Part shown: piece after piece, positions 1-43,000 of the stretch
How positions within the stretch are numbered: the stretch's first letter is position 1
Layout: the number at the start of each line of letters is the position of its first letter
Origin: Gordionus sp. m RMFG-2023
Lineage: Eukaryota; Nematomorpha; Gordioida; Chordodea; Parachordodidae
Direction: 5' to 3'
Assembly (NCBI RefSeq): GCF_954871325.1
Contig: NC_088776.1
Coordinates: 3,355,985-3,419,984, forward strand
DNA length: 64,000 nucleotides
The notes under the pieces: model-generated
Databases searched by the model: none
Told to the model about the DNA's origin: nothing
Seen by the model: only the letters and a program-made list of their open reading frames with translations
Position numbers and translations under genes: made by a program

Positions 1-1061
1 GTTAAATAAATTTAAAAAAAAAACAAAATCGATTAAAACAATTCACAAAATTGATTATGTTTTTGAATTAAAATATCATTTTATTTTTTTAATATTATAT
101 AAATATAATATTTATTGTATATAGTATATATATATTATATAATAAATATATTTATAATACTAGTAAATAGGAATTTTTGAAAATATATTTATTTAAGATA
201 AAAATGGGTCTGATAATTTAATTAGCCAGCCCTAATTTAACATCTGATTATTTACCAAATAGAGCTGCACCTTTAATCAATCAAATTTTTTAGATACAAT
301 CTAAGATAACAAGCCAAAATATTTTCTTGTAAAGGGGCTAAACATTCTCTCAAAATTCAAAAATCTTCAAAGATTCTTGTTCTTTTGTAAAAAAAAAATT
401 TGAGCATGCACAAAGAACATTAAAAATGTCTTTTATAAAAAAAGCTTCTTTGATTTACACTTTGATGTATTTGTTTAAAAAAGAATTTTAAAAAATTTTC
501 AAGATTTTTCAAATATTTTTATAAAAACATTTTTTAACAAGCTCAATGAAGATTTTTTTACAAAAAATATTTTTTCATTTTGCTCAAAAATCTACTTTGA
601 GCGTGCACAAAATTTTTTTAAGAAAAAATCTTCAAAAGTTCATCATTTGAAGATTTTTGTTAAAATCTGTTCCTGTATGACATCACCATTAAAATATAAT
701 CATAGTATATCTAGGGATATAAAAATAAAGTGTAAGTCTAATTTGGAAATTTTTAAATTTTAGATAATCAATTTGTTTTAGAAAGAATTTATTAAATAAA
801 TTAAAGAATTTATCAAATAAATTAAAGTTTTTAATTACACAATTTAAGAAAATGGACAAATTAAAAATTAATCATTATAATTAAAAATTTACAGAAAAAT
901 ATTGGTAAGTATATTTAAAATAATAATGGTAATAAAAAATTGAAAGCAAAATTTTGCCAGATGATATTTTCCACAAAGATGTACCAACCACATTACATAT
1001 GTTCCTAACACATTTCCAATAAAATACGCCTATCACTTTATAAATTTTTTAAATAAAAATT
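1..1061. other. 5' flank of INTS1
   Basis: A+T-rich sequence upstream of the proposed start. It has no convincing gene. Bases 340-670 form an imperfect inverted structure (AAAATCTTCAAAGATTCTTG on one side, a reversed version near 640-665) resembling 44040-44470, so it may be an old MITE-like repeat. No clear promoter motif was identified. Confidence 0.4.
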
Positions 1062-1089
1062 ATGAAAAGAGGAATAGCAAAAAATAAAA
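1062..1089 (+). CDS. INTS1: INTS1 exon 1 (codons 1-10)
   Basis: A short basic first coding exon, MKRGIAKNK, ends in phase 1 at donor GTAAGG. Human INTS1 also starts with a short basic stretch. The start is inferred from phase and may be preceded by non-coding exon sequence. Confidence 0.6.
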
Positions 1090-4000: not shown

Positions 4001-7000
4001 AACAAGCCAGGCCTTCTCCAACATTACATGACTTGTTTAGAGTTTTCAAATTACATAATATATATATTTTTAAAAATGATTGTTTTATTTATTTGTTATT
4101 TTTAAAAAAAATTTCTTTAGATCCATAATATATTTCATATACTTGATATAATTGTGATTTGTTTTATTTTATTGTTAAGCAATGTTATATATATTTTTTT
4201 AATATTCATATTTACCTATTTTGGAAGGTAATTACGCCAGGTCTTAAAGGAGGGGGATGCCAGGAAAAAAAATAATTTAATGATATACCCCCTTTTAAAA
4301 ACTTGAAACTATTTAAAAAATTAGATTGCAAATCTTATATTGCTGATAGTTTCAGCAGATAGAAGAATCTTTAATTACTTTCCCAAAAATTAAAAATATT
4401 TTAAAGATATAACAATTTATATATTGTTATAAAATATGTCAGAAAATTATAAAATAAGTAATTCAGATTACTATTGAAATATTATTTATTAAAACAGAGA
4501 ATGTAGGAAAAATGACCTAAAAAAATAAAAAAAAATTGAAGAAATAATTTATATTTTTTTAGGAAATATATATTTTTTTAGCACATAATATTAAATTATA
4601 TATATATATATATTTAAAAAAATTTTTTTTTAAAAAATAAAACCATAGAAACCTGCTTCTCGTCGACACTACTAAACGCGAAATAAATAGCGACATATTT
4701 TCTTCGGCCTTCAAACTCATAGTCTTAAACGAACTATCCAGCTCTCGTAATCCTAATAACACTGCACTCATCGAGTTTTGTGTTCGGCTTTGTTCGTTCA
4801 GTTCTGCTCAGGTATTTTTTTAGGATCCCTTATATCAAAAATTCTCTTTTTATTAAAATAACTTGATGGAAAATTTGATAGACTTGGAGACTGGCCATTT
4901 TGCCCCGTGCCTTAAAAATTGGGCCGGGGTTGATTCGGATCCAAACAAGGGAATTTTCCTCCCTCTCTCTATATTCATCTTCTTTTCTTTCCTTTTTTTC
5001 GTTCCGAATTATTTTAATTTTCTCTCAACCCTCTCCATGGCTTGTCGTAAAATTTTGTGTTTAAATAAAATTCAAATTGAAAATTGTTTGCCTTTATATT
5101 CTACTTAAGGTCAGCCGTTGACTTTCACTGCTTCAGTCTCGCGGCAAGACCCTCGTAAGGTCGTACATAAAAGAAAACTGTTTGAAATCGTTAATTATTA
5201 AATTCCCAACTCTTAAATTAAACACATTTTTGTCTCAAAAAAACGTCAATTATAATTTACGAGATTTTTAGAAGGGATTTTCCCCCAACCTGTCAGTATT
5301 TTTAAAAAACGGAAGAAAGAAAGAAAGAGAAAATGAAAGAAAGAAAGAAAGATTACAACCAATATGTTTGGTAGGTTTATTCTGTAAAGACATGTAGATA
5401 TTTGGGGCTCAAAAACTCACCGGCGTCCATTTTTCCGATTTTGATTATATTTTATTCGTTTTTATTTCGAAAAATTCCTCAAGACGTTGGCACAAGTATT
5501 TCTGGCTCTTCTTTGCAACCTAGAAGATTACGTTCGGGCTCTCAAAGCCCTTTATAAGGAAATCACCAGGACCGTCAAATATAAATTCGACTATTCCACC
5601 TTCGCCAAAACGCTGCTCAACGTAAATTTGACTGGGACCGATGTTTACCAACCCTTGATAGAATTAGACTCAACGCTCAAAGTTAGAATTTTTTTTCCGA
5701 ATATACGAATTGAATAATGAATTGTTCATATTCGGATATCTTTATCTATATCTAACAAATTGAATCATGTACATATACTAATACTAGTGATGTTAAAAGT
5801 TACTTTTGAAACATAAGTAGTTACAGTTACTAGTTACATTGGCAAAAACATAACTAGTTACAGTTACTAGTTACATTTTTACAAAAGTAACTAGTTATTA
5901 GTTACAGTTATTTTCAAAAGTAACTAGTTACTTACTTTATGCATCATTCATATGCGCATTATTTATTTATTGACATTTATTTAATATAAAAAAAACAAAG
6001 TATAATCAGTTATTAAATAATATACAATTTATTTATATAAAAAATATCGCAAAATTGAATATTTACATCGAATACAAAAATATATATTTGCATTGAAAAA
6101 AAAACATTTATTTTTCATAAAAATTAGAATCTAATAAATGTTTATTTGCTTTTAACAACAAATTAATTTCAAAGTTATTATCTAGAAGACGTGCTCGTTT
6201 ATCTCCAAATATGAGCTTACCTAGACTGAACATGCGCTCTACGGGAGCACTTGATGTTAGAACAACATTATATTTAATAAAGAGTAATTTTAACTTTGGA
6301 AAATCGTTATATAAAGAAAACGTGTTGTTATTAGATTTGATAAAGTTTTCTATAAGTTCATTATCCAGAATATTTTGGCGCTTTAGGTCAAAAAATCCAA
6401 CTACATCAAGTGATGTTGGTTTTGAGCATGATTCATTCGTCTGGGATTCACTCTGAGGTATTAAGGTATTTATTAAATTTAAAATTTCCTCCTTTTTTGC
6501 TTTATTCCTTTCTTGCCTAATCCAAGGCCAGTCAGTTTTAAATAAAGGGTGAAGAATTGAAGCAATGATGTTGTCATTATCATAAAGATTATTAAACCTA
6601 TAACATGATATTATTAATTTATAAATAATTATTTGATTTAAGTTACCTTTTTTCAATACTAGCTAATATAAAATCCTTTAGAGGTTGACAATATTTTAAT
6701 ACCTGCACATCTGCCATACATATAATTATTTGTGTTATTGTTGGGGTATAATAACCCAGATACATGTACTTTTCACCTTCAAGAATATCAATGGCTTTGG
6801 ACACTAGTCGCATAATCTAATTTTTAAATTGTAAATTTTTATAAGACTTTAATTTAAATTTACACTACAATATTCTTTTATAAAATCACGATCATCTGAT
6901 GTGAATCTACACAATTTTAATTCATCACATAATGAATCAAATTCCACAGGCACTTGATTTAAGAACGATAATATTTTGGCCAGGGATTTATAAAAGGAAC

Positions 7001-19000: not shown

Positions 19001-22000
19001 CCCAGCTGGCGAGCAAAGTATTAAAAATGCAAAGCGTTGGAAGTCCCACTCTAGCCTCAAACACGTGAGGATCAATCAGATACTGGCCAAATTTCACCAA
19101 CTCGCCACGGTAATATAAAACTATCACTTGTTTACAATTATAGTTTTGTTTATTTTACATGTTTATCTATATATTTAGGGAATGTATGTACAAGCAACAC
19201 ATGTAGCGTTCCCATTTTCTTTGAGAGGAAGAAAAGTAAGGAAGGAAAAGAAAGAGAAAGAAAAGAAAAGAAAAAAAGAAAGAAAGAAGAAAAAATAGGT
19301 AAAAACCTATATCCTATTTTAAAAATAGAAACCTGGGTTGTTTAGAATTTTATCCAAAATTAGTGTTGCGGAAGCGTTCATGAACGGAGTTTGTTTCCGG
19401 AAAAAAAACTATAAACGGAATGTACGGCGTCTATTTTTTTGAAGTTGTACGCGAATGCGTTCGATTTATTTTTTAGAAACGCTTACGACACTAGCTAAAA
19501 TGTTTAAAAAAAATTAATTTTTTTTTTCTTCTATTAGATCATGATTGCCCCAAATATTTTAATTTTTTTTATCGATTCCAATAAATGTAAAAGGACCTAG
19601 CCAAGGGCGCGTCACTTCGCCATGTTTTCTATAGACCAAACGGTGATTCAAAATAAACAACGTTATTTATTCTATAACGAACATTCTTACTGAGAATTAC
19701 GAGGTCTATAATGCTTAGGCGTCAGTCTGAGCTGAGCTAAATTAATATTATCCGTCGTGATCTCGCTGATATCCAACATGTCGGGAAACCAAACTGTATA
19801 TATCAAGTTATATTCATGGGATACCTTCATCTTGCTCCAAGTAGTTCTTTATATTCTGTAATCAACTAGGATTTTTATATCCCTTACTCCTATAATGCTC
19901 TTCTACCAAACATATTAGCCGTATATTAAATGATTTACGGAGTGCCACATCTTGTCAAACTGTTAAGTTCATCTTCGACCCGAGGAGTCTAGCTTTGCAT
20001 CACCTTTAGCTCTCTCTGCCATTCACTTATAAGCATTTGTCATTCTCTATTTGGTTCTTACACGTTCGTTAAAATTATTATTGCTAACTGGAAATTACAA
20101 AACTTGTCTCTTTGATCCTTCACCCAGAATGCAGAATATCCACGAGATGAGGCAGCAGCGGGGCCTTGGAACTCATCTCGTTCTTTATCGATTTAATGTT
20201 AGAAACAACTATCGGCTTGATAGAAAAGGTGGGGAAATAATTCAGCCATGGATGGGTCCTTGTATAATAGATGGGATGAGATGAGATTGATAAAAGTAAA
20301 ACAAAAATAATTATTAAACAAAAATAATTATTAAACAAAATATTTATTATTTACGGAATATCGAGAAATTCTAACTGGGGAACAAATAAAAAAAACAAAG
20401 TTATATATATATACAGTGTTGTGCAGATTTGATTCAAAACATTTCTATATTTTATAACGTTTTTGTAAAAATTAATAAAATAAATAAAGCTTAATATTAA
20501 TTAAAATTATATTTAAAAAAAAAGTACAATGGTTTTAAAAAGTACATACAATTTTATTTTATTATATTTTATATATTATTCGGTCTAGAATTGGAGTGCT
20601 CCACTTTGCGTAAATGTTTTAAAATGGGAAAATCAGCATTTAAAAGTTTAAAATAAATTACAGGAAAAAGTTATTGATCAATTTTGACAATAACTTTGGC
20701 AAAGATTAATATTTTTTTAAATCCAGTTTTTATTTTTATATATATTTTGGGAATAAATAAGTTATTATATTCACTTCTAACTCAAAAATTTTGAAAATGT
20801 CGAGTGGAGCACTCCATTTATAGACCGTTGATATAATCAATAATAAAGCAGCTTTATAGATTATGAAATGATCGATATCCACCACTTCTTAAATATGTAC
20901 CTTTTAGAAAAATACATATATATATGAAAAGGTTGCAGAAATCAAAGGCAGAAAATAAATGTTATAAACGTATATTACGTCAATTTATTGATATTTAAAT
21001 TTAAAAAAATATAATCATCACATAATTCAAAATAGTTTTCTATATATATTGACAATTTAATTTAATGTAATTTATAATAAATTGATCTTTTTTTTAAAAG
21101 TTAAAAATAAAAAATTGAACATTAGTTTATTAAGTAAATTGATTTATAAAATATAAAATTTAATATTAGTTTATAAACAAATTGATTTAAAATATAAAAG
21201 TTGTTTTTTATAAAATTTAAAGTTTAATATTAGTTTATAAACAAATTGATTTAAAATATAAAAGTTGTTTTTAACAAAAAGAAAGAAACAATTCTTATTA
21301 CATTTGAAATATTTTAAGTTACGCCATAAATGGCTTAAGGATGTAAAAAAAAACAATTTTTTAAAGTTAATACTGTTTAACATTTCACACTTTTTTCTTT
21401 TTTTTCTATAATTTTTGTCGTTTGTCATTCTTGCTCGTTAACCTCTTCGTTGATCTTTTTTTTTGTTGTACGTTTTATCAATTTAGTTCCACACACAAAA
21501 AAACTAATTTTGTTTTAATATAAGGAAGAGAAAAAAAATTTATTATCAAATTTAATTCATTATAAAATTTTCAAATTTTCTAGGCAACACACTATTTCTA
21601 ACTGGTCTTTGAACGTTGCGATTCTGATCATTTACTTGTACATTTTGGTTTCTTGGTTCATCACCTCCCCTTCTAAAATTCAATGTATAAGGTGATGCAT
21701 TATTATTAACATTCGCTTAAAAAACTGTTGCACCGTTAGAAGATAGTTCTACATTAGTTGATCTTTTTTTTATTTGGTCCAAGTGTCTTTTTATAATTTT
21801 GTTCCCAGTATCTATATCATACAACAAATTTCCGTTTTGGAATTGTTTCATTTTATATTATAATTTTTTATTTAATTATTTTTATTTTTAAATTTTACTC
21901 CTTTATTTTTCAATTTGAACACTTTTTTTATATCATAATTTCTCTTTAACTTGTTCTTTATAACAAAATTTCTCTTTCTCCTTCCATTTTCAACATATGA

Positions 22001-25000
22001 TCTCCATATCGTATTCTTAATCTCCTTTTCAACATCATGATATTTAATCACCTTTGTTTTAATTTTCTTTTCCAAAGTTTTTTTAAATTTTTTATTAATT
22101 ATAAAATTTTTTATTTTATTATTTTCTTCAATTTTTGTTTCATTATTGTTTTTAATAACTATAATTTCTTCAATTGTTATCAAATGATTTATTTCTTCTA
22201 ATCTATAAGAATTTATTTTTTTAACAGATGGTATTATTTTTGGTACAGCATTTTGCTTTAAGCGAAGCTTGATATTGGTTTTTCCCACAAATTTTTTTAA
22301 AATATTTTTGAAGGCACTTAGCCAAGTTCTGCCAAGTAATGGACTCTTATTGCTATTAACAACGATCACTTGTAAATTTTTAGTTACTCCTTCATAATTT
22401 ACGCTAATTTGCGTCGTTCCTAATATTTTGATTTGATAGCCGTCATAGCCTGTTAATTTTAAATTAGATTTCTTTAATTCAGTGATGCCTGCGCTCTTAG
22501 CTATCGAACTAGGTATTATTGAGAATCTAGAGCCAGTATCGACCTGCATGATCGTTGACAGGTTATTCAATTTTAAAGTTACTTTATACGCGTTATTATC
22601 TGTGTTGTCTTTATCAGCATCCATATTATTTATGTCCAAGTTATACAAATTATATTCTTTTTTTTATATTTTATTATTATCATCCTCTTTTATTTCTTCT
22701 ATGTTTATGGTGTTTATTTTATTAGTGTATCGTGTTTGATTATTATGGTCGACATGATGTCTACAATTACATGCGTAACTTCCTCCTCGATTTCCATTAT
22801 AATTATTACTATGCCTTTGCGTGCATCTTGAAGTATCATAGCGTCTGTTGAATCCGTGATTGTAATCATAATAAAATCTTTGGTTATTATCGTTATTATA
22901 ACTGGTTCTATTTTCAAATCTTGAAAAATTATTGTATAATCCTGGGTAATTTGCCCTAACGTTATTGTAGTTACCCGCATTATAGTTCTGATGTCTAGGG
23001 TTGTAATTATTTCCCTGATAATTATTTCTTTGAAAGTTGTTGTTTCTCGTAGTCCATAGTTGTCTGTTATCGTTATTCGATCGTGGATTATGTCTATCGT
23101 CGTATCTGACCACCTGTTTGTTTTCTTCAACTTTCATGCCTCTTTGTCTTTCCAAATGTTTTACGCTTGTTTCTTCTTCAGTCTTTTCACTTAAAGAAAT
23201 GTTTTCAACTTTAGCTATTATATCTTCTTTTAATTCTGTCTCCTCAAAATCATCTCTTAAACTAAAGACTTCTGCTAACGTAATATTCTCTTTCAACGTA
23301 ATTTTCTGCCTGATACTTCTGCTATTTGATGAAATTTTTACTTTTTCAATGACTCTACTATCGCTTAACGAACATTCATTTTGTAAAATACATAATCTAC
23401 TTACCCAATTGATGTAACTTTCATTTTTACCTTGTACAGCTGCATTGAATAATAACAATTTCGAACTTGTAGATTTCCTCGGGTGTAATAACCTAAATTT
23501 TTCAATCAATATCGATGGATTGATGAAATCGGTAGGTGAACATATCGATTTGAGCTTGATGTATTCTTCGTCTGGTAGTCTTCTTGTGAAGGATCCTGCT
23601 TTTTCGATATCAGAGATCTGAGCATCGTTGAATATGTCTTCGAAACGACTTAGAAAAACATCGCCATTACCTGTGTATGTTGGAAATTCAATATTAATAT
23701 TAACGTTATTATTTGAGGTCTGTTTCATAATTTATAATTTACAATATCCTTGAATTTTTCTATTTTATAGTATTGGATTTTATAAAAATTTTAAGAAGTT
23801 AATTTATATTTAATATTTTAGAAAATTTTACTGCCACCATGAAAAGTCAGGCGTGTCTAAGTATAATTTACTTCCTCGTAGGCTAGAGGATTCACCAACT
23901 TTTAATATGATGAAACTAACTAAAGCTGGTACAGGTGCACCACGGAAGACCGCTTGTATAAAACATAGCATAGTTAGAGGAGAATCAACATATTTCGTTA
24001 ATAAGTGTGTTTTCGATGCATATAAAATATTTCTAATCAGTACTACACCTAAAAATATATGTTCTAATAAGATAAATATTGTCTTCTGTTGGCAAATCAA
24101 AGTATATAAAATTGCTGTTCCTAGTGACACTACATGTACGCAAATTATATATGTTTTGTCTATGTCGTTTGGTTGATTTTTAATTGCATTTCCATCACCT
24201 TCGAGAACTCTGGCGTTGGTCTGATTGAAAACATCAAAGTACAAATGTGCATTTGTACTAATGTACACTTGTTGAACGATGAAGGTTAGAACAACACACC
24301 CGATAGCAGCTGGAAGTAGAAGATATAACGGACTTCTAAGTGTTAGAAAAAACATACCTAGAATAGGTATCCAGCTAATTTTATGTAGGGGCAAACCTAG
24401 ATCTAAAGTCTTACTTGTCTTCTGTTGGTATATTTCTAAAGCACTACTATATATTTTTCCCCACGTCAAATGTCGTATTAGTGGTAATACTCCAGAAACA
24501 TACATAAAGATCCAAACACAGATAACAGTTGGATTATCAGCCGAAATGCTGGTATATGAAAAGGTGTCACTTAGATAATTAAATATTTTGGTTAAAGGTA
24601 GCAAATCCATACCTTTAAGAGCATACATGTCTTTATGACTATACGATTTGTCAAATAGCCTTGCACGTTCTAAATCATGTTTATCCAATAAATCAATGAC
24701 TATCTTATATCTTTCAAATAGAACTTCCATAAAACCACAATACAGAGTTGCTAAGAGAATGGCTATAACCCATAATAATACCATGAAGATCAGAAGAGGT
24801 CTGTCTACATACCCCCTCTCACCCCATGACAGTAATGTGGGTTGTAGAAATGCTACTTTTTGTTTTTCTATAATTTTTGAATTTATTCTTTATGGCGCCG
24901 CAAGAGAGAGGTTCATAGATAATATAAATAAATATGAAGCCAATGAATTAATGACAATTTTTTTAGCGTATTATTTAGCAAGAGATAAGGTAAAATTTTT

Positions 25001-28000
25001 AGATCCCATATGGTTAACTAGTGGTACGGAAGTGTATGAAACTCAACCAATAACACAGGGAGCGCTTAAAGGATATACGATAAAACCGCGCTATTGGGAT
25101 GAGAGGATTCTGGAACAGAAAAAATTAATTGATTACTCAAATATGTGTGAAATAGGGAGTAGCTTGCGAGGGGGTTTAGGTCCTTTACACATGTTTGATG
25201 GTTTCACCACTCTATTGAACATAAATTTTTTAAAAGAATTGTACAAAATGGGTGAGGTCTATATCCAGGACACTATGATATGGATTACTAATACGGATGG
25301 TTTCAGAGAAGAAGAGATTTTAGCTAGAAGAAAGGCTTGGTGGGAGAAAACATCCGTCATTATGTTTATGATAGTAATTTTCTTCATTTTAAAATATTTT
25401 CTAAAAACAACCGTCAAGGGTATTCAAGAGACAACGGGAAATCTGACACGTAACATGCACCCGGTTTACATTTTATCGATTAAGAGGTCTGTCTACATAC
25501 CCCCTCTCACCCCATGACAGGAATGTGGGTTGTAGAAATGCTACTGCAAAGATATAGATTACCAGGAATGCCATATGAACTTCACATATATACATTATGA
25601 TACCTCCTAAAATCGATAAAATGTAAACCGGGTGCATGTTACGTGTCAGATTTCCCGTTGTCTCTTGAATACCCTTGACGGTTGTTTTTAGAAAATATTT
25701 TAAAATGAAGAAAATTACTATCATAAACATAATGACGGATGTTTTCTCCCACCAAGCCTTTCTTCTAGCTAAAATCTCTTCTTCTCTGAAACCATCCGTA
25801 TTAATAATCCATATCATAGTGTCCTGGATATAGACCTCACCCATTTTGTACAATTCTTTTAAAAAATTTATGTTCAATAGAGTGGTGAAACCATCAAACA
25901 TGTGTAAAGGACCTAAACCCCCTCGCAAGCTACTCCCTATTTCACACATATTTGAGTAATCAATTAATTTTTTCTGTTCCAGAATCCTCTCATCCCAATA
26001 GCGCGGTTTTATCGTATATCCTTTAAGCGCTCCCTGTGTTATTGGTTGAGTTTCATACACTTCCGTACCACTAGTTAACCATATGGGATCTAAAAATTTT
26101 ACCTTATCTCTTGCTAAATAATACGCTAAAAAAATTGTCATTAATTCATTGGCTTCATATTTATTTATATTATCTATGAACCTCTCTCTTGCGGCGCCAT
26201 AAAGAATAAATTCAAAAATTATAGAAAAAAAAGTAGCATTTCTACAACCCACATTCCTGTCATGGGGTGAGAGGGGGTATGTAGACAGACCTCTTCTGAT
26301 CTTCATGGTATTATTATGGGTTATAGCCATTCTCTTAGCAACTTTGTATTGTGGTTTTATGGAAGTTCTATTTGAAAGATATAAGAAAGTCATTGATTTA
26401 TTGGATAAACATGATTTAGAACGTGCAAGGCTATTTGACAAATCGTATAGTCATAAAGACATGTATGCTCTTAAAGGTATGGATTTGCTACCTTTAACCA
26501 AAATATTTAATTATCTAAGTGACACCTTTTCATATACCAGCATTTCGGCTGATAATCCAACTGTTATCTGTGTTTGGATCTTTATGTATGTTTCTGGAGT
26601 ATTACCACTAATACGACATTTGACGTGGGGAAAAATATATAGTAGTGCTTTAGAAATATACCAACAGAAGACAAGTAAGACTTTAGATCTAGGTTTGCCC
26701 CTACATAAAATTAGCTGGATACCTATTCTAGGTATGTTTTTTCTAACACTTAGAAGTCCGTTATATCTTCTACTTCCAGCTGCTATCGGGTGTGTTGTTC
26801 TAACCTTCATCGTTCAACAAGTGTACATTAGTACAAATGCACATTTGTACTTTGATGTTTTCAATCAGACCAACGCCAGAGTTCTCGAAGGTGATGGAAA
26901 TGCAATTAAAAATCAACCAAACGACATAGACAAAACATATATAATTTGCGTACATGTAGTGTCACTAGGAACAGCAATTTTATATACTTTGATTTGCCAA
27001 CAGAAGACAATATTTATCTTATTAGAACATATATTTTTAGGTGTAGTACTGATTAGAAATATTTTATATGCATCGAAAACACACTTATTAACGAAATATG
27101 TTGATTCTCCTCTAACTATGCTATGTTTTATACAAGCGGTCTTCCGTGGTGCACCTGTACCAGCTTTAGTTAGTTTCATCATATTAAAAGTTGGTGAATC
27201 CTCTAGCCTACGAGGAAGTAAATTATACTTAGACACGCCTGACTTTTCATGGTGGCAGTAAAATTTTCTAAAATATTAAATATAAATTAACTTCTTAAAA
27301 TTTTTATAAAATCCAATACTATAAAATAGAAAAATTCAAGGATATTGTAAATTATAAATTATGAAACAGACCTCAAATAATAACGATAATATTAATATTG
27401 AATTTCCAACATACACAGGTAATGGCGATGTTTTTCTAAGTCGTTTCGAAGACATATTCAACGATGCTCAGATCTCTGATATCGAAAAAGCAGGATGCTT
27501 CACAAGAAGACTACCAGACGAAGAATACATCAAGCTCAAATCGATATGTTCACCTACCGATTTCATCAATCCATCGATATTGATTGAAAAATTTAGGTTA
27601 TTACACCCGAGGAAATCTACAAGTTCGAAATTGTTATTATTCAATGCAGCTGTACAAGGTAAAAATGAAAGTTACATCAATTGGGTAAGTAGATTATGTA
27701 TTTTACAAAATGAATGTTCGTTAAGCGATAGTAGAGTCATTGAAAAAGTAAAAATTTCATCAAATAGCAGAAGTATCAGGCAGAAAATTACGTTGAAAGA
27801 GAATATTACGTTAGCAGAAGTCTTTAGTTTAAGAGATGATTTTGAGGAGACAGAATTAAAAGAAGATATAATAGCTAAAGTTGAAAACATTTCTTTAAGT
27901 GAAAAGACTGAAGAAGAAACAAGCGTAAAACATTTGGAAAGACAAAGAGGCATGAAAGTTGAAGAAAACAAACAGGTGGTCAGATACGACGATAGACATA

Positions 28001-31000
28001 ATCCACGATCGAATAACGATAACAGACAACTATGGACTACGAGAAACAACAACTTTCAAAGAAATAATTATCAGGGAAATAATTACAACCCTAGACATCA
28101 GAACTATAATGCGGGTAACTACAATAACGTTAGGGCAAATTACCCAGGATTATACATTAATTTTTTAAGATTTGAAAATAGAACCAGTTATAATAACGAT
28201 AATAACCAAAGATTTTATTATGATTACAATCACGGATTCAACAGACGCTATGATACTTCAAGATGCACGCAAAGGCATAGTAATAATTATAATGGAAATC
28301 GAGGAGGAAGTTACGCATGTAATTGTAGACATCATGTCGACCATAATAATCAAACACGATACACTAATAAAATAAATACCATAAACATAGAAGAAATAAA
28401 AGAGGATGATAATAATAAAATATAAAAAAAAGAATATAATTTGTATAACTTGGACATAAATAATATGGATGCTGATAAAGACAACACAGATAATAACGCG
28501 TATAAAGTAACTTTAAAATTGAATAACCTGTCAACGATCATGCAGGTCGATACTGGCTCTAGATTCTCAATAATACCTAGTTCGATAGCTAAGAGCGCAG
28601 GCATCACTGAATTAAAGAAATCTAATTTAAAATTAACAGGCTATGACGGCTATCAAATCAAAATATTAGGAACGGCGCAAATTAGCGTAAATTATGAAGG
28701 AGTAACTAAAAATTTACAAGCGATCGTTGTTAATAGCAATAAGAGTCCATTACTTGGCAGAACTTGGCTAAGTGCCTTCAAAAATATTTTAAAAAAATTT
28801 GTGGGAAATATAGGTGATGATTATTGTAATGATAAACTTACTAAACTCATACTTGATTACAAACTTAAAATGGCCGATAAACCCATCTGCAAAACCAATA
28901 TCAAGCTTCGCTTAAAGCAAAATGCTGTACCAAAAATAATACCAAATGTTAAAAAAATAAATTCTTATAGATTAGAAGAAATAAATCATTTGATAACAAT
29001 TGAAGAAATTATAGTTATTAAAAACAATAATGAAACAAAAATTGAAGAAAATAATAAAATAAAAAATTTTATAATTAATAAAAAATTTAAAAAAACTTTG
29101 GAAAAGAAAATTAAAACAAAGGTGATTAAATATCATGATGTTGAAAAGGAGATTAAGAATACGATATGGAGATCATATGTTGAAAATGGAAGGAGAAAGA
29201 GAAATTTTGTTATAAAGAACAAGTTAAAGAGAAATTATGATATAAAAAAAGTGTTCAAATTGAAAAATAAAGGAGTAAAATTTAAAAAATAAAAATAATT
29301 AAATAAAAAATTATAATATAAAATGAAACAATTCCAAAACGGAAATTTGTTGTATGATATAGATACTGGGAACAAAATTATAAAAAGACACTTGGACCAA
29401 ATAAAAAAAAGATCAACTAATGTAGAACTTTCTTCTAATGGTGCAACAGTTTTTAAAGCGAATGTTAATAATAATGCATCACCTTATACATTGAATTTTA
29501 GAAGGGGAGGTGATGAACCAAGAAACCAAAATGTACAAGTAAATGATCAGAATCGCAACGTTCAAAGACCAGTTAGAAATAGTGTGTTGCCTAGAAAATT
29601 TGAAAATTTTATAATGAATTAAATTTGATAATAAATTTTTTTTCTCTTCCTTATTAAAACAAAATTAGTTTTTTTGTGTGTGGAACTAAATTGATAAAAC
29701 GTACAACAAAAAAAAAGATCAACGAAGAGGTTAACGAGCAAGAATGACAAACGACAAAAATTATAGAAAAAAAAAAAAAAGTGTGAAATGTTAAACAGTA
29801 TTAACTTTAAAAAATTGTTTTTTTTTACATCCTTAAGCCATTTATGGCGTAACTTAAAATATTTCAAATGTAATAAGAATTGTTTCTTTCTTTTTGTTAA
29901 AAACAACTTTTATATTTTAAATCAATTTGTTTATAAACTAATATTAAACTTTCAATTTTATAAAAAACAACTTTTATATTTTAAATCAATTTGTTTATTA
30001 ATATTAAATTTTATATTTTATAAATCAATTTACTTAATAAACTAATGTTCAATTTTTTATTTTTAACTTTTAAAAAAAAACAATTTTTTAAAGTTAATAC
30101 TGTTTAACAATATATATATGTATTTTTTTTAAAATACACGTTTCATAAGATTTTATTGAAATATAAATAAATATAGATGGCGTGAAATATTTTAACGCTT
30201 TTTAGATTATCCTTAGACTTTATTTTAACACATTCATCCTTAAAATATATGGCAGTCTTATGACTAATTAATTATATAATTTTTAAATACCCTTCAAAAA
30301 ATATATTTTAGTTGATATCTTTGCAGCATGTTTTATTTAATAAAGGATTTATTTATACACTCTATATCAAAAATAATTTTTATAATATATATAAATGTTT
30401 CATTAAGTAGATATTAAAGTGTTTTATTAAATAAGTAAAATAAGTAAAGTAAGTAAAAGTATTTTTAATACAAAATATCACGTATATATATATATAATGA
30501 ATTCAATCCTTCAGGTTATGTAATTTACAAACGAAAAGTTAATATTATATTCAATTTAAATTCAATTTAAAATAACATTTATATTATAGTTCTCCCCACT
30601 ATAAATTGAATTCATCGTGATAACGTAGTGGGGGTTTCGAAACTCTTTTTTCAAGAGTTGTATTCTCATGTTCTGCCTTTTCCACTTTTTCGGTCAACGT
30701 AACGGGTATTTCCTTCTCTTGTGTATGTACATCCCTCAATTGATCTGCATGCTTGTTTTTAACGATCCCCTCTGATTTCACATCGTACAATATTGCGCTT
30801 TTTCGTTGTAACACTTTTCCTTCATGCCACCCTGCTGTCCTTTCGTTTGCTATCCAAACTTTTTGCTGCTCTTCAAACTCCCGAGATTCAACACTTCTAT
30901 CTTTGTAGTACTTTTGTTTCCATAGAGCGTTTTTCGTCCTTTCTCTCGTTGATAATTTCCACTGATCTAATGTCGTCCTAAGCGACCTTACAAACATCAT

Positions 31001-34000
31001 CTCGGTAGGTGATTTACCAGTAGTTGCATTGGGAGTATTACGGTGAGTAATTAAAACATTCGCTAAATTTAACTGGTCCGGAGTCCCACATCTCCTTCCA
31101 GCATAGAAACGCGTCTTTATCATTCGTATATATCGTTCAGTCAAACCATTCGATTTGGGGCTATAAGGGGCCGATCTAAAATGTTTTATATTGTTTTTAA
31201 AAAGAAACGTTTTGAATTCAGATCCAGTAAACTGAGTACCATTATCTTAGACAATGTAGCGAGGTAACCCAAATCTAGCGAAATAATTACGCAGATTATT
31301 TATTACACTCGCCGAATTAATATGTGTTAAAATTGCAACTTCAACCCATTTGGTAAAAGCGTCTACGCAAATTAACCAATACTTTCCAGATACGGGGCCT
31401 GTCAAATCAATGTGTATTCGTTCCCAAGGTCGGGTAGGAATGTTCCAATTGTATAATGGCTCTTCTTTAGCTCCCGGCCTTCCTTCTTGACAACTCTTAC
31501 AACATTTAACAAAGTCTTCAACATCAGTATCGAGATTTGTCCAAAAAACGTAATATCTACACAATGATTTCATCCCTAGTATCCCAGGATGTCCTCGATG
31601 AATCACATATAAAACCTCCTTTTTTATAATATCTGGAATAATAATTCTATCATTATAAAATAATAATCCTTCTTCGAACGAAATATTATCTTTAATCGAA
31701 ATATATTTTTTTACAATCTTCGAATAATTATTTATATTATCAATATACCAATGATTTATTATTAATTTAATAATCTCTTTTAGGTTTATATCATTGCTCG
31801 TTTCACTTACGACTTTACTGCAAGTGAAAGATAAATCTTCTATTAAATTAATTTTTAATCCTCTGATTTCTTCTTCGATTTTTTTTGTAACTTCATTGGT
31901 TTTTGCTTTCTTCACCCCCAAACGGGACAGAGCATCGGCACATTTGTTATGATTACCTGGTCTATATATTATCTCATAATCATAATTTAATAGTTTCGTT
32001 GCCCACCGTATTAAACGGTTATTTGTTATTTTGTTAAGATCTCTTTTATCACCTAAAATATATTGATGAAACTTCTCGATAGCGAACATGATCGCCGAAG
32101 CCTCCCGATCAATTGTGGCATAATTCTTTTCAGCCGCCGAAAGTGTCCTCGATGCGTAAGCAATCGGTTTCTCCTGGCCAGTAAGAAATCGGTGTGCAAT
32201 AACAGCTCCTAGACCATCTTCGGAAGCGTCACAAGAAATCACGACAGGGATATCGGCTGAATAAGGAATTATTGTATCTTCTTTTGACAATATATTTTTA
32301 ACTTTAGTAAATATTTCATTTTCTTTAGCTGACCAAAACCAACCAACATTTTTACTCGTTAGTCGGTGTAAAGGCGCACAAATAGAATGCAAATTTTTAA
32401 AATGCCTCATGATAATTCACTATTTCAAGAAATGAACGTAGTTCTTTAACATTGGAAGGTGTTTTAAAATTTTTTATAGCGCTAATCTTATCTTCTGTAG
32501 AATGAATTCCGAAACTGTCAATAACATGACCTAAATAAGTGACTGACTTTTCTCCGATTTTAATTTTATCGGTCGTCGTGGTCAGTCCAGCCTTCACAAA
32601 TCTTCTTAATACTTCTTCCAAATTAACTATGTGATCGGAATTATTCTCACCTGCAATAATTATGTCGTCTAAAAATACACTAACCATAGGAATTAATAGG
32701 TTTTTCATAAAGCGTTGGAATATTATCGGAGCGCTAGTCAAACCAAATGGAATTCTTTGGTATCGGTAATAACCGACATGTGTCGAAATTACTAAAAGGT
32801 CCCTACATTCTGGACTAACTCCGAATTGTAAAAATGCATCTCTTAAATCTATTGTTGAAAATATTTTACCACCCGCGATCTTATTTGTTAGGTCGACGAA
32901 AGTTGGTAGTAAATCGTTATCGATCGCTAGATATTTGTTGATTGTTAAACGAAAATCTCCGCATATCCGTACGGCACCGGATTTCTTTAAGATATTAACC
33001 GTTGGCGTAGCCCAAGTGATTGGAGTTATTGTTGGATCCACCTTCTCGATAACGCCTTCGTCTAAAAGTCTGTCCAACTCAGCTTCAATGGTTCGACGCA
33101 ACGGAAAAGGAACTCTTCTTGCTGGTAATGCAATCGGTAACGTGTTCGGTTCTATTCGGATGACTGCCTTTTGCAGTTTGATTTCACCTAATTTTTTTTT
33201 AAAAACTTGAGGGAATTTTGAAGCAATCGTATTTAAAGAGGGAACCTTCATATTTATTTTATTAATACGAAATTCTTCCGGTAGTTTTATATCAAATTCT
33301 CTAATGAAAGGCATCCCAAAAATAAGGGAAATCTCTTTAACTACCCAAATAAGTAAAAATTTTGAAATATTTTTTACTTTGACTTCTACGGTACATTTAC
33401 CTAGTACTTCGATTTGGATATGATTATATCCCACTAATTTATAAGCCGGTGATAGTTGTGGTCTGCCAATACGATTCCAGGTGACCTCATCAATCACACT
33501 ACACGCGGCGCCGGTATCAAACTTCATAGCTAGCTGCAACCCATTTATCTTCGCATCGATGGTTGCTTTATTTGAAAATGACAGGCGAGGTGTCCGTGGC
33601 AGAATCATTTGTATGGCATGGGTTCTACAATCTTTCGCTATGTGGTTTGCCTTACCGCAACGAAAGCATATCACTTTATTTTGAATAGAGTTAGGTTTGA
33701 TACTAGGTCTATAATTATTATTAGGAATATAATTATTACTAAAGTGTTTATTATTATTAAATCTATTGACGTTTGTATAATTAATATTTCTAAAATAATT
33801 ATTTTTCGAACCCTGTGTTGGCTTATTTTTAATTATTTTATTAACTTCAGTCTGGGTTTCATTTTCCAACGAAGACAGCGCTATCGCTAAACGCACGGTC
33901 TCTTCAAAAGTAATATTGCCTTCGATATACTTTGACCGAAGTTCTTTGTCCAACTCAGGTAAGCCTACTCCTAGGATAAATATATCTCTTAAAAGTTCAT

Positions 34001-37000
34001 CAAAAGGCGGTTTAAAATTACAAAGAGAATAGGCAGTTTTAACCCTAATTGAAAAGTCAATAATCGTCTCACTGCATCTTTTTAACGTAAAAAGTTTTTT
34101 CCTATTTACGAAAATGCCCGAACTATCCTTGAACACCAAATTTAAGCTTTTTATTAAAGTATCATAATTTATCATCTCTAAATTTATTGGAAAGTGAAAG
34201 TTCTTAATTTTGATAAGATTGTCTGTTCCGATATAGGCTAAAAGCAGGTCTTTTTTTGTATTTAAATCTATAATATTTCTTACTTTATAAATTAACTCCA
34301 AGTTAAATAAGTAGTCCTGAATATTTACTAATTCTTTGACGAATTCTGGAATATGGAATTTAATAGGAACTACTTCCATTGAATCTTCAACTTTAATAGG
34401 AGCTACTTCCATTGAGTCTTTTACTTTAAATTTAATAAATCAAATAAATCTTCTCTAAAAATCGTCGCCAATAAAGTGTTTTATTAAATAAGTAAAATAA
34501 GTAAAGTAAGTAAAAGTATTTTTAATACAAAATATCACGTATATATATATAATGAATTCAATCCTTCAGGTTATGTAATTTACAAACGAAAAGTTAATAT
34601 TATATTCAATTCAAATTCAATTTACAATTACATTTATATTACAGATATCTTCAAAATTTGAAGTTGTCATCCAGCTGATTTTACTTAGTATTTCACTGGT
34701 AATTTTTTTATTTTTAAAAGTAACTATGGTCTTTAAATTTTCTTTCATCATGTGACTTTTTATCGAAACCATCGCCATTTATGATAAATTGAACTGAGAC
34801 TTTTTCCTTATCTGGTCTGAAGCCCAGTGGTCGAGTCCCACTAAACTCTATTCTGCCCCTTCGGTAATGCTCTGTAGAATAGTCCTGTCTCATCACAATC
34901 GTAAATATTACTCCTTTCATAATCTTTAATCGGAGATGGGAGTGTATTTTTCCTCCAATCATTTGCATTAATAATATCCACGTTTCCTCTTTCATCGCAA
35001 ACATTATGAAAAAAATATATTTCTGTCCCCCAAATTTCTGCAATCAGCTGCTACTAGGAATGCCTATAATTTATAATTATACATATTATAAAAATTTAAA
35101 TTTACCTTCATTGAATGTTTGGGCTAAAAAACATAGCTATTTCTAACATCTCTGGCCCATTTAGACTTCAATTTTAACTTCGCTTTTGGGTAGACTAAAC
35201 CAAGCTGCCTCTGTCTTTGGATAACAACTCATTCTAACTCTTTTAGTTGCGGGGTGGGGGGGGGGAGGTTATTCCTTAGAAATTATCAGCATGTGCTTGC
35301 TTCATTAGATTCCAAATCGGTAAATCATGGAAACGTGACATTTATAACTTAACGCTAATTGTGGTTTTGAAGTGGTGCTTAAATTTTCAATGATTTCCTC
35401 CTTTTCCTTGAGGGGGTTAACTATTCTAAAAATAATTATAATATGATTATTGTATATAATAAAATTATACCATTGGCGGATATATTTTTTTCGATAAATT
35501 TTTTTTTTATTTTTTCGCGTATCCGATTAAATTAATGTTATTATCATGTAAATGGGACCTGAAAAATTACACAATTATAAATGTAATTTAACATTATGCC
35601 ATAGTAAAAGATAAGAAAACGTTGATATATAAAAATTTCTTTATTTTAAATTTATATTACTAAATTTGAAAACTACAAATAATTAAAAAAGTAACCAAAA
35701 GAAAAAAAAATCAATTAAAGCGAAAAACAAGGTTACAGGCTAGCATATTTAATAGCAATTTAAGTTGAACGAATTTAGATATATATAAATATATATAAAT
35801 CAATCTCAATTAACATTATCAAAATCACGGGGGTCTCTCCGCATTTAAAAAGTGTTCGCATCTAAGCCATATGCGATTAAACGGTTTCGACTGTAAGACA
35901 ATTTATCCTCATTCTAAATCTAACATTAGTAAATGTGGCGTAATTTTATTTATAAATAATACAGAGATCTGAGATAGGCCATTTTTAAACACAACGTTTC
36001 GAACTACGTTTTTTTTACTGCTAGCGATTTTGATTATTTTTTTTAACCATTAAATACTTATAACTACTGTTGTTAAACGACTCAGTTTGAGCCGATTTTT
36101 AAAAACGGCTAACTCAATATTTTATTGGGAAAAATATTATTCAAGCCTTAAAATTTTGCTCATAGGGTGACATAAAGGTTTGAACATCTGTTATCGAAAT
36201 CTCGAACAAGATTTTTCTGGCTAAAATATTGAAGTTAACCGTATCTAAAAATGTGCTTAAATCAAGCCATTTAACAATACTACTTATAACGATTTAAATA
36301 AACAAATTGTTTTTTTTAAATATATATTTTTTATATTTTATAATAATTTTAAACCAGAGGAAACATACTTTACTAAAATAAAGTATTTTGTGAATTTTAT
36401 ATGCTTAAAAAGATAAAATTGTTTGATATTGCATCCATATCTTGTTGAGTTTATTGAGCACCTTTTTTTTTTAATCTATAATTTTTTAAATCAAAAAGAT
36501 TTTTTTTTAAAAAAATTAATTGAGCATCATTTTGATATAAATATATTAAAATAAAGTATTCAATAAATTTAAGGAAAATTATGATAATAGAATTATTAGA
36601 TAACTATTCATGATCATTATCACAGAAATGAATATTTAGCAGATCAGACATTACATTTATCTCAAATTTCTTGGAAAAATTACAAGCCTTTTATTGAAAT
36701 GGTTTTTTTTTACAATTACAATTTGCAAAAATTTCTACAAGAAATTTTATATAATTATATATATATATCAGAGTTGTTAAAAGATACTTTTTAAATGGAT
36801 CTAGATACAAAGAACAACGTCTAAAATAATATCTAGATACAGAGAACAACGTCTAAAATATTATCTAGATACAGATTATTTAATCAAAAATCTATCTAGA
36901 TACAGATACGGATACCACATTTTTATATCTAGATACAGGATCTAGATACTTGTATCTAGATCCTTTAACAACTCTGATATATATATTTATTAAAATATTA

Positions 37001-40000: not shown

Positions 40001-43000
40001 CATTTTTTTTAAAAAAAATCTATTTTGGATTAAAGATAAAATTAATATTAATAAATGATAATTGATCTCATAAACAGATTTTTTAAAAAAAATCGATCAG
40101 CTGTTAAAGCGCCATCGCGCCACTATGAATTTTTAAGGTAAGCGGATTCTCGGCCGTGACTAGAGCTAACGCCCGTGATATTTAGTAAAATATACTAAAG
40201 CTAACACCCGTGATATTTAGTTAAATATACTAAAGCTAACACCATGATAATTAATAACATTTTATCATGTGACAATTCATTTTCATATGATAACCCGCTT
40301 AATTTAAAAATATATTTTAATGTTTCTATTTTTTGAATTAGACAAAGTTAGTAATAATTTTTGTAAATTGATTAATTAAATAATAAAATTTTATTTATAG
40401 ATATGCCTATAGATGTATAGAACCTCCATAGTCCATACAAGCAATTCAAATTCGGAATTAGACAAAGTTAGTAATAATTTTTGTAAATTGATTAATTAAA
40501 TATTAAAATTTTATTTACAGATGATACATTTAGGAGCAATATTTTCATCATATGATTCACTTAGTAGCATTATTAAAGAATATGAGCAGTCATGCCTAGT
40601 TAATTTATATATTGCAAGGTCTACATTGTTAAAAGCTCCCCATCCTGAAGAGCTCATAAATCTTTTTAAATATCAAAAGGTTTCTTATTCTTGTAAATAT
40701 GGGGGATCCATACAAAAAAATCGCTCAAAAAATATAAGGAATACTTCAACATTTCGTAAAATGTGCTCTTTTAAATTTACAGTGTGTCTAAAATACAAAG
40801 ATACTACCCACTTCCTACAAATTGTGACTATGGTCAATAAACATACAAACCATGATTTAGGTAAAATTTTACATAATAAATTTATAATAATCATAATTAG
40901 ATAAAAATACATTTGAATCTCTTCCTAAACAAAGAGTACTTTCTCTTGAAGAGAGAGAATCAGTTTTCAGCTGTAATCTCTCTTTTAAATATCCTCAAAG
41001 CATGAAAAATACATATGTGAATATTTACTGCTGGGAAACTTTCATAGAAGGCACTTCTATCTGCCATATCTTTATCAGCCACAATAACTTCAAGCTTTGT
41101 TAAATTATTATTATGATATTTCATAATATCACACATTTTTTTTACACATTTATAGCTTTCACTTTGTACAAGCCAAAGTGACACTATTTGTGATTCACCA
41201 TTTCCATCAATTATTAAGGTAATGAAGAGAGGCATCCCATAATTATTTAGCTTGTAGGTTGCATCCACAAACATAACCTCTGGATATCTTTTGAGATTAT
41301 GTTGCATCATCTCATCTTGAAAAAAAATTCCTAATAGAATATCATTTTCTTCAGTGACCTCAACAATAGATCCTTTATTTCCTTTAAGCAGCTGGAAAAT
41401 GCTGGCTAAATCATTACACTTTGATTTATTAATATTAGTTTGTAAATTGTGAATATCTTTAAGGGTGATATTTTTTCCTAATTTAAGCATGGATTCTTGT
41501 ATTTTTAGCTTGTTAGCTTTTAAGTTTAAGTACTTTTCAACTGATTCTCTCTCTTCAAGAGAAAGTACTCTTTGTTTAGGAAGAGATTCAAATGTATTTT
41601 TATCTAATTATGATTATTATAAATTTATTATGTAAAATTTTACCTAAATCATGGTTTGTATGTTTATTGACCATAGTCACAATTTGTAGGAAGTGGGTAG
41701 TATCTTTGTATTTTAGACACACTGTAAATTTAAAAGAGCACATTTTACGAAATGTTGAAGTATTCCTTATATTTTTTGAGCGATTTTTTTGTATGGATCC
41801 CCCATATTTACAAGAATAATAAACCTTTTGATATTTAAAAAGATTTATGAGCTCTTCAGGATGGGGAGCTTTTAACAATGTAGACCTTGCAATATATAAA
41901 TTAACTAGGCATGACTGCTCATATTCTTTAATAATGCTACTAAGTGAATCATATGATGAAAATATTGCTCCTAAATGTATCATCTGTAAATAAAATTTTA
42001 ATATTTAATTAATCAATTTACAAAAATTATTACTAACTTTGTCTAATTCCGAATTTGAATTGCTTGTATGGACTATGGAGGTTCTATACATCTATAGGCA
42101 TATCTATAAATAAAATTTTAATATTTAATTAATCAATTTACAAAAATTATTACTAACTTTGTCTAATTCAAAAAATAGACACATTAAAATATATTTTTAA
42201 ATTAAGCGGGTTATCATATGAAAATGAATTGTCACGTGATAAAATGTTATTAATTATCATGGTGTTAGCTTTAGTATATTTTACTAAATATCACGGGTGC
42301 TAGCTCTAGTCACGGCCCGGATTCTCAGCCTTGATATGTTGGAGGATAGGTTAGAAATCGCGAAAACAAAAAATCGCTAAAAAAATGATACCTCCTAAGA
42401 AAATTCTTGAAACAATATTGGAAATAATATAATGGACGCTAAGGAAAGGAGTAAAGCCACTTGTATTTAAATTGAGTTTGTTTAAAAAACAAAATGGCTG
42501 AAATTTGAGGTTCCCACTTTTAGCAAAAAATAATTCAAATATGTACTTTTAAAATAAAATTATCGAATTCAAATTTTATATAATTTTTCTTCGCATTTTT
42601 TATGCTAAATATTTTTGCCATTCACGTCCATTTACGACTCGATTATTTAAAATTTTTGTTTTAAATACGTCCCAATCATATTTAAAGGTGTTTGCTATAT
42701 TTCAAAATTATTTTTTATTTTTGAATACTATTTTTTTTTATACAGAAGAATTTGCATGATTTATGAATTTTTCTTGCATTTTTTTTTGGTACTAAAATTT
42801 TATCAACGGAAATATAAAGTATCTTTGCCATTAGCGGAAAATTTGTCCTTGTATCACGATCCTTTTTAAAAAAAAAATTTTAAATCATATTTTCATTATT
42901 TGTATGGTGAAGAAAGTAATCCTGAAATCTCTGTTTCTCAACCTCATAGGATTTTTCATCTCCTAAGCTTATCATTCTTCTCATGGTTGAGTGAAAAATA

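Follow-up and report, generated by a model that had tools for sequence, protein, structure and literature searches.

The window analysed here, a 64,000-nucleotide stretch of the Gordionus genome lying within a 64.4-Mb contig, carries a long inverted structure flanked on the left by a dispersed repeat and on the right by a Gypsy element (Table 1). Self-alignment of the assembly placed its arms at approximately 21088-25481 and 25611-30080, around a centre of 129 bp. The inner ~3.2 kb of the arms (22281-25481 against 28808-25611) are 99.56% identical over 3201 columns, with 11 mismatches, and the outer segments (21075-22282 against 30090-28891) are 98.5% identical over 1209 columns. Within 21088-25481, 17 substitutions and several indels separate the two arms, one of the indels being an 84-nt stretch found in the right arm only, so the palindrome is not a single read joined to its exact complement. 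The original prediction of two near-identical inverted arms, separated by a spacer of about 130 bp and differing at individual sites and in length, is thus borne out, and the palindrome is confirmed as real in the assembly. The gag-like, DTGS protease-like, 318-aa membrane-protein and integrase-tail open reading frames (ORFs) were all found as described, and the polymerase is indeed missing; a second open stretch in the centre region, NS3/NS4A-like, was absent from the earlier gene list. The window holds another inverted repeat, at 40194-42310, probably of a DNA transposon.

Table 1. Features of the palindromic unit (window coordinates; "." marks features without strand).
Feature	Position	Strand	Basis or remark
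Left target-site duplication ATATA	20920..20924	.	Inside TA tract
Complete LTR, 3' LTR of left arm, TGTTAAACAG...CCTTTTCA	20925..21382	-	Aligned with LTRs of L009, L010, L017
Polypurine-tract-like stretch adjoining LTR	21383..21410	-	Sequence; named by position
Protease-like ORF, 258 aa, without the 84 nt, left arm	21872..22648	-	Pfam PF13975, E 1.3e-7
Gag-like ORF, 354 aa, left arm	22664..23728	-	Named by position; no Pfam match
PBS-like TGGTGGCAG (23831-23839) and last 7 nt of LTR (23840-23846)	23831..23846	-	Compared with L010, L012
Piece A, 2K-NS4B-like, left arm: ORF 24784-23828, 318 aa, and 64-bp overlap 24794-24857	23847..24857	-	Frame continuity and collinearity; own signal weak
Element sequence, ~20 nt, from beside polypurine tract, between viral pieces	24858..24879	.	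Mirror 26213-26232
Piece B, NS3 C-terminus/NS4A-like, left arm	24880..25481	+	97% protein identity to right-arm copy
Centre (hairpin loop), comprising a 64-bp repeat (25482-25545) and a spacer (25546-25610)	25482..25610	.	Runs on into right-arm B
Open NS3C-NS4A-2K-like stretch, 234 aa (query B)	25482..26183	-	hhalign profile match
Piece A, 2K-NS4B-like, right arm (ORF 26305-27261)	26233..27242	+	Mirror of left arm
Gag-like ORF, 354 aa, right arm	27361..28425	+	Mirror gene of left arm
Protease-like ORF, 283 aa, right arm	28441..29292	+	Pfam PF13975, E 1.5e-7
99-aa ORF, C-terminal tail of the family's integrase	29323..29622	+	Near-same sequence ends L022 and L023 integrase-side ORFs
Right-arm LTR, truncated, broken in A-run	29789..30079	+	LTR alignment
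Inverted first 39 bp of LTR, ending exactly at LTR terminus CTGTTTAACA	30071..30109	-
Right target-site duplication ATATA	30110..30114	.

A Gypsy-type element and its relatives

In each arm, 2.7 kb on the outer side belong to a Gypsy-type LTR element and the inner 1.6 kb form a captured part. The original prediction had seen no LTR, whereas a complete LTR lies at the left end and a truncated one at the right; LTRs being present at both outer ends, the unit extends to 20920-30114. These LTRs have TG...CA ends, the right one being truncated and patched, and they face each other inverted rather than in the direct orientation of an ordinary insertion. The outer junctions carry a target duplication, ATATA on both sides of the unit, which has the family's 5-bp length, an agreement made cheap by the TA tract in which it lies. 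Such 5-bp duplications flank four of the five ordinary copies with both ends found (L009, L010, L011 and L028); L012, which has none, was counted as a miss. No empty site with joined flanks was found in our search.

The element itself is internally deleted, with dozens of related copies in the genome. Its protease-like ORFs carry DTGS and match the Pfam gag-asp_proteas model at E ~1e-7, its integrase-tail ORF is open at 99 aa in the right arm only, and its putative primer-binding site was named by position. At L009, the same gag/protease/LTR unit stands by itself as a 3.5-kb non-autonomous copy, in which LTRs, a gag-like ORF and a protease are found and no reverse transcriptase or integrase core was seen; the proposal of a new type of parasitic element is thereby contradicted. 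Two relatives, L022 and L023, encode RVT_1 (Pfam E 5.2e-17 and 1.6e-26, respectively) and rve (6.7e-16 and 1.2e-14), with RNase H also recognised by Pfam in L023. Across the 38 sampled family loci, the internal region occurs on one strand only in 31 and on both strands in seven, the window locus included. Other inverted structures, at independent loci, have arms that are 91-99.9% alike. The search for further copies therefore points to a largely one-off rearrangement, albeit in a family where inverted copies recur.

Captured flaviviral sequence and its junctions

In profile-profile comparison, piece B aligns with the flavivirus NS3 C-terminus followed by NS4A/2K (hhalign against NS3C-NS4B: probability 94.4, E 8.5e-8, 206 columns, score 60.2). 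Controls scored at most 24.4 for 40 shuffles, 16.6 for the reversed sequence and 19.8 for three other polyprotein segments. The best BLASTP E-value against 15 polyproteins was 0.006; B had no Pfam match above cut-off, the best, to a nematode GPCR model, reaching 14.6 bits against a cut-off of 22.8 (E 0.02), and no match in PDB or IMG/VR. On this profile evidence, B is flaviviral in origin.

Piece A is collinear after B, with a local score of 21.3 that was reached by none of 100 shuffles, by 2/100 under a second setting and by 7/100 in global mode. On a long segment, its hhalign score was 20.5 against a shuffle maximum of 20.9, with hhalign probabilities of 0.7-1.5%. It has no match in Pfam, PDB or IMG/VR and no recognisable homologue, matches only itself among 5.8 billion proteins, and against the 15 polyproteins gave only BLASTP E-values of at least 1, several of them elsewhere, e.g. 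in NS5; its AlphaFold model, built without relatives, has a pLDDT of 39.7. We infer that the 318-aa ORF is probably NS4B, as its position indicates and its sequence suggests only weakly. The membrane-protein gene reported earlier is present, but as captured sequence, with a flaviviral N-terminal half, rather than the element's own.

At the DNA level, no second copy of the inner part was found in the genome, and a host membrane gene was rejected on this ground. Protein B matches only the window locus in the genome at E<=10, and in tblastn searches of the remaining flaviviral loci A and B reached a best E-value of 0.40. Pfam flavivirus models match other loci of the genome and none was found in the window copy, while the Pfam NS3 C-terminal model has no matches in the whole genome.

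Of the matches to the element elsewhere, the window's own arms apart, none extends beyond window position 23846, and the element/viral junction lies 7 nt from the LTR/PBS border. The element insert between the viral pieces has exact matches of 17 nt (left) and 20 nt (right), both above the longest chance match of 16 nt in 300 dinucleotide shuffles, and the same joints, this insert included, occur in both arms. Arm divergence shows no clear difference between the viral part (4/1634) and the element part (13/2760; Fisher p 0.32), as if both had been copied together.

At least five other Gordionus loci contain flaviviral fossils, among which NS1, NS3 and NS5 of the flavivirus group are represented. 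Viral pieces stand in opposite orientations at three loci (L039, L041 and L050). At L040, inverted LTR-bearing arms enclose an in-frame fusion of NS5 and an integrase core; no matching target duplication was seen by eye for these arms. The inverted repeat at 709-3510 of L039 does not belong to the fossil: it is a high-copy sequence with long inverted ends that inserted later, and it was left out of the count.

Origin of the palindrome

The unit probably derives from a single palindromic cDNA that was copied from two RNAs, those of a non-autonomous Gypsy-type LTR element and of a flavivirus, and then integrated. This reading starts from what the locus itself shows: the order of the sequences, their junctions, the flaviviral B, the identity of the element and LTR-type ends that are each bordered by ATATA. 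The order of switches, the snap-back priming and the supply of enzymes in trans are inferred, and the scheme is a reconstruction that requires at least four switches. Minus-strand cDNA would first have been made from the element RNA, through the LTR, integrase tail, protease, gag and primer-binding site. Some 7 nt into U5, reverse transcriptase would have jumped to plus-sense flaviviral RNA (NS4B-2K), returned briefly to the element beside the polypurine tract (20 nt), switched onto minus-sense flaviviral RNA (NS3C-NS4A) and then moved back onto plus-sense RNA of the same region (2K-NS4A-NS3C). By then the cDNA would end in a stretch able to pair with sequence synthesised shortly before, and would fold back with a 129-nt loop and prime its own extension to the LTR, yielding the palindrome. 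At the far LTR, synthesis would finally switch within an A/T run onto plus-strand LTR DNA, restoring the U3 terminus, and the integrase of an autonomous relative would insert the whole palindrome as one unit, duplicating 5 bp.

The mirror could instead be younger than the insertion, a single-arm chimeric element having integrated first and been duplicated in inverted orientation by replication or repair (fold-back, break-induced copying). Inverted copies are frequent in the element family and might also arise by post-integration events; nematomorph mitochondrial genes contain palindromes of unexplained cause, for which replication template switching is discussed (PMC6649704); and the window has its second inverted repeat (40194-42310). 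However, the right-hand boundary falls precisely on an LTR terminus made of the inverted 39-bp LTR start, with ATATA and a TA tract as on the left, a point where a repair event is not expected to end, and both arms share their joints down to the 20-nt element piece. We therefore consider this sequence of events unlikely. An assembly artefact, in which a hairpin or missed-adapter read is joined to its complement, is much less probable still, as had been anticipated: palindromes are a known artefact type, but the arms differ from each other, the outer ends are asymmetric, the 129-bp centre is non-palindromic, the termini are of LTR type with a short duplication, and inverted structures recur at independent loci.

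The membrane ORFs might also be a host gene or an envelope-like gene of the element rather than viral, an idea favoured by A, taken alone, having no recognisable homologue. It is hardly tenable against a profile match of B that is specific to flavivirus NS3C-NS4A, the searches of the genome that found the inner DNA and protein B at no other locus, and the NS1, NS3 and NS5 fossils elsewhere in the genome. The gag-like, protease and membrane ORFs, open in both arms, would suit a new particle-forming mobile element whose normal form is the palindrome, but no further copy containing the membrane part was found and most sampled family loci show the internal region on one strand only, which leaves this proposal a negligible probability. 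The palindrome is a single chimeric insertion and does not represent a new family of elements.

Comparison with known systems and significance

Non-autonomous LTR derivatives include LARD, TRIM and internally deleted Gypsy elements. L009 resembles them in having LTRs, gag-like and protease sequences and no reverse transcriptase or integrase core seen; it differs in that gag-like and protease ORFs are kept, and the copy in the window is chimeric. In copy-back defective viral RNAs, the two strands of one region stand head to head around a loop, whereas the Gordionus palindrome consists of DNA that a retroelement enzyme probably synthesised, and is joined to an element. In acutely infected cells, LCMV sequence has reportedly been found joined to sequence of the LTR retroelement IAP and integrated, in a form not known to be palindromic. 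That case resembles the window in its joint of virus and LTR retroelement and differs in virus group; the LCMV-IAP fusion cDNA is cited in PMC8166107.

Flaviviral fragments in an animal genome have been tied to Ty3/Gypsy elements, with template switching by retrotransposon reverse transcriptase called likely and one viral insertion lying inside a full-length Pao-Bel element (PMC5497376), and a retrotransposon-dependent route has been suggested elsewhere (PMC5512259). Unlike those fragments, the Gordionus viral piece is mirrored, is enclosed in a single LTR-element cDNA that integrated with ends of its own, and has switch points readable to the base; "inverted" is absent from the main text of both papers and "palindrom" from that of PMC5512259. 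In insects, helicase domains of plus-RNA viruses are fused to retrotransposon proteins in one reading frame, for which a chimeric cDNA from retrotransposon and viral RNA is the model (PMC6338049). These fusions come closest to the NS5-integrase fusion at L040, but they involve helicase domains of other plus-RNA viruses, and the accessible part of that source mentions no palindrome. Nematomorph mitochondrial DNA has coding palindromes of up to 284 bp inside genes (PMC6649704). These too are long inverted repeats of a nematomorph genome, but they are short by comparison and mitochondrial; "nuclear" and "retro" are absent from the paper's main text. Open-licence titles and abstract openings yielded no such architecture for palindromic or snap-back retroelement cDNA, palindromic viral fossils or LTR-virus chimeras.

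For non-retroviral RNA viruses, the way into animal chromosomes has mostly been deduced from location, from fossils lying near LTR elements. Here, a single integration can be followed at close to single-base resolution, with its exit from the element RNA, entry into viral RNA of each sense and fold-back, and the cDNA would have integrated with element ends despite that fold-back. Palindromic cDNA is thus suggested as a route of endogenisation for non-retroviral RNA viruses, flaviviral fossils are documented in a nematomorph, and a link is drawn to the inverted repeats already puzzling in this phylum. As a speculation that we hold doubtful, LTR-retroelement reverse transcription in horsehair worms may regularly yield snap-back cDNAs that capture replicating RNA viruses from both strands, and the integrated hairpins could give double-stranded RNA and so act as heritable antiviral RNAi loci. 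If so, the window locus, the NS3 hairpin on C5 and the NS5 loci would be the candidate RNAi hairpins.

Mirrored arms and the outer LTR element

The palindrome (window 20920-30114) lies in the genome of Gordionus sp. m RMFG-2023, a horsehair worm of the phylum Nematomorpha. Self-comparison of the window bore out the two long mirrored arms with a short spacer described in the original prediction, with 99.56% identity over the inner 3201 columns, 98.5% over the outer 1209 columns and a centre of 129 bp. Between the arms there are 17 substitutions and a number of small indels; in addition, the left arm lacks 84 nt that are present in the right. Substitutions amount to 4/1634 in the inner viral part and 13/2760 in the outer part, a difference that is not significant (Fisher p 0.32). 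The viral part, the element part and the window have G+C contents of 0.34, 0.26 and 0.31, respectively.

The outer part of the palindrome is an LTR element. A search of the worm's own genome (287 Mb, 267 contigs) using the left arm as query returned at least 110 matches and, among the matches listed, none extends beyond window position 23846 except the window's own arms. An ordinary 3510-bp copy (L009) features two 463-bp LTRs that are 99.8% alike, a gag-like and protease region, an integrase tail and a 5-bp duplication; such duplications were found in four of the five ordinary copies with both ends located (L009, L010, L011 and L028), and none in L012. The family is a young one: among the 12 fetched copies that have an LTR pair, divergence within the pair is 0.2-1.7% for eight copies and 3-6.5% for the other four (L013, L019, L021 and L027). 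Kin of the element at L022 and L023 harbor ORFs with reverse transcriptase and integrase core domains, with an RNase H domain in L023, and the window's 99-aa ORF represents the terminal part of the integrase-side ORF seen in these kin. The window unit would therefore be an internally deleted derivative, dependent on enzymes supplied elsewhere.

The LTR, held to be invisible in the original prediction, is complete at the left end and truncated and patched at the right (see table). Small target duplications had been proposed as a check, and the five bases ATATA are indeed present outside each end of the unit, though both copies lie within a TA tract. No empty site was found elsewhere in the genome using the joined flanks as query. 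Of the left flank in this query, roughly the outset 140 bases belong to a dispersed repeat. A separate Gypsy element is located beside the palindrome (window 30415-34644, LTR-like repeats at 30415-30589 and 34472-34644), and a host ORF of the window, on contig C2, has an apparent paralogue on contig C1 (93% over 79% of the query).

Coordinates of the palindrome features (window positions) and of two further flaviviral loci (contigs C3 and C5 of the same assembly)
Feature	Position	Strand	Description
Left arm	21088-25481		inverted arm, self-comparison
Right arm	25611-30080		inverted arm, self-comparison
Left LTR	20925-21382		complete
Right LTR	from 29789		broken in an A-run at about 30079
Inverted first 39 bp of the LTR	ends at 30109		follows the broken right LTR; ends exactly at the LTR terminus
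A	24784-23828	minus	open stretch, 318 aa
B	26183-25482	minus	open stretch, 234 aa
L050 NS3 palindrome	C5:30680500-30690400, arms 3417-4489 and 4882-5951		self-comparison
L040 NS5-integrase fusion	C3:47102500-47111500, 481-5965		flanked by inverted arms from a different element family, each bearing an LTR-like repeat

Flaviviral affinity of the inner part

The inner part of the palindrome is foreign. A DNA search that passes over very common words gave no genome match for window 23828-25620 besides the two arms; further copies, which the original prediction suggested looking for, were found for the element part and not for the inner part. The last 64 bp of B recur as the start of A, indicating that the two were formerly consecutive. 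Pfam gave no match for A and none over cut-off for B (best, the nematode GPCR model Srd, E 0.02), and neither has a relative in PDB or IMG/VR. Only A itself was recovered among 5.8 billion proteins, and only the window's own arms were recovered with B in this genome.

Eight stretches of this genome score over the cut-off of the Pfam NS5 model, the best with an E of 4.6e-83, and the control genomes have none; the flavivirus helicase model had three matches here, with signal in 3/14 control genomes as well, over cut-off in two. The NS3 piece of flaviviral locus L050/L051 (Flavi_DEAD, 1.2e-30; Peptidase_S7, 8e-13) retrieved 36 flavivirus polyproteins, the best from Tabanus rufidens flavivirus at 37% identity. 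Fourteen of the 36 were cut into segments for comparison, five of them nameless and nine named (flaviviruses of Tabanus, Culex and Aedes among them). In hhalign, B matched the NS3 C-terminus-NS4A-2K segment with a score of 60.2 (E 8.5e-8, probability 94.4; 206 aligned columns), against scores of at most 24.4 for 40 shuffles, 16.6 for the reversed sequence and at most 19.8 for three other segments. Plain BLASTP aligned B at the expected place with an E no better than 0.006.

The score of A against the long segment (20.5) is not significant, shuffles scoring up to 20.9. Against the part after B, the score of A was 21.3, a value that 0/100 shuffles attained; a second, full-length setting also gave 21.3 (2/100 shuffles), and the global alignment gave 6.7 (7/100). 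In none of these did hhalign itself assign a probability above 1.5%. BLASTP gave an E of 1 or worse, partly at the wrong place in the polyproteins. We take A as NS4B because of its position and frame rather than its own score. A host gene as the alternative source is considered very unlikely. The original prediction counted this 'membrane-protein' gene as part of the element, but it belongs to the foreign inner part, beside the flavivirus-matching B.

Junctions and proposed template switches

A is joined to the element inside the LTR, in its final bases and 7 nt upstream of TGGTGGCAG, which resembles a primer-binding site. Between A and B, an exact match to the element next to its polypurine tract covers 20 nt (right arm) or 17 nt (left arm); the longest match among 300 dinucleotide shuffles of the element is 16 nt. 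As A and B point in opposite directions in both arms, and an unbroken open stretch spans the centre together with right-arm B, the simplest source of A and B would be viral RNA of both senses.

The sequence order is directly observed, and the template switches may have followed one another in time as follows. Reverse transcriptase would have left the element RNA for viral plus RNA, returned briefly to the element, then copied viral minus RNA and next plus RNA across the same region. The resulting cDNA end would have folded on itself with a 129-nt loop and been extended to the LTR, the U3 terminus of the patched right end being restored via the A/T run. This patched end and the ATATA repeats are consistent with integration of the completed molecule.

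Mirror-image copies and other flaviviral loci

Inverted copies were counted in 7/38 loci of the window's LTR family, the window's included (loci built from 45 rows; two of them are supported by pieces as short as 152 and 52 bases). Within a non-random set of 20 fetched loci, hand-picked from the list, self-comparison revealed large inverted arms at L022, L023 and L024, a smaller inverted repeat at L020 and an inverted LTR pair at L016. The family seems prone to mirror-image copies even without virus, as at these loci. A second inverted repeat of the window (40194-40965 / 41539-42310, 772 bp, 99.1%) flanks a MULE-like transposase ORF; together they probably represent a DNA transposon whose inverted ends are long.

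Mapping with four flavivirus polyproteins placed viral pieces in both orientations at three of the five other flaviviral loci (L039, L041 and L050) and in one orientation at two (L040 and L042). NS5 pieces are opposed at L039 and L041; L039 was also struck later by an insertion, about 2.8 kb in size, that is high-copy and has long inverted termini. The L050 arms (97.2% over 1076 columns) enclose a 392-bp middle with the NS3 protease and are joined to E/NS1-side pieces, one matching Flavi_NS1 (1.3e-31) and the other without Pfam match. At L040, an integrase core (1.3e-15) is fused in frame to flavivirus NS5 (E 3.7e-55) with its NS5 thumb (4.4e-32) in a single 403-aa ORF. The inverted arms on either side are 92.8% alike over 1522 columns; both contain a repeat that is LTR-like by its pattern of matches, together with an ORF that reads outward and has a zinc knuckle scoring under the Pfam cut-off. 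This plan resembles the window's with another LTR family, but no matching duplication is seen at the ends.

Published work describes viral integrations near Ty3/Gypsy elements in Aedes, with template switching deemed likely (PMC5497376; cf. PMC5512259), viral helicase domains fused to LTR-retrotransposon proteins in insects (PMC6338049), LCMV joined to an IAP element (as cited in PMC8166107) and palindromes of unknown cause in nematomorph mitochondrial genes (PMC6649704). Searches of the open-licence literature turned up neither a palindromic chimera of virus and LTR element inserted as one unit nor flaviviral fossils in Nematomorpha; passages of PMC9854234, PMC12942856 and PMC11097642 name no such fossils. 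The palindrome itself holds, but its reading changes: instead of the new type of parasitic element initially suggested, it is probably the fossil of one aberrant reverse transcription with flavivirus capture.
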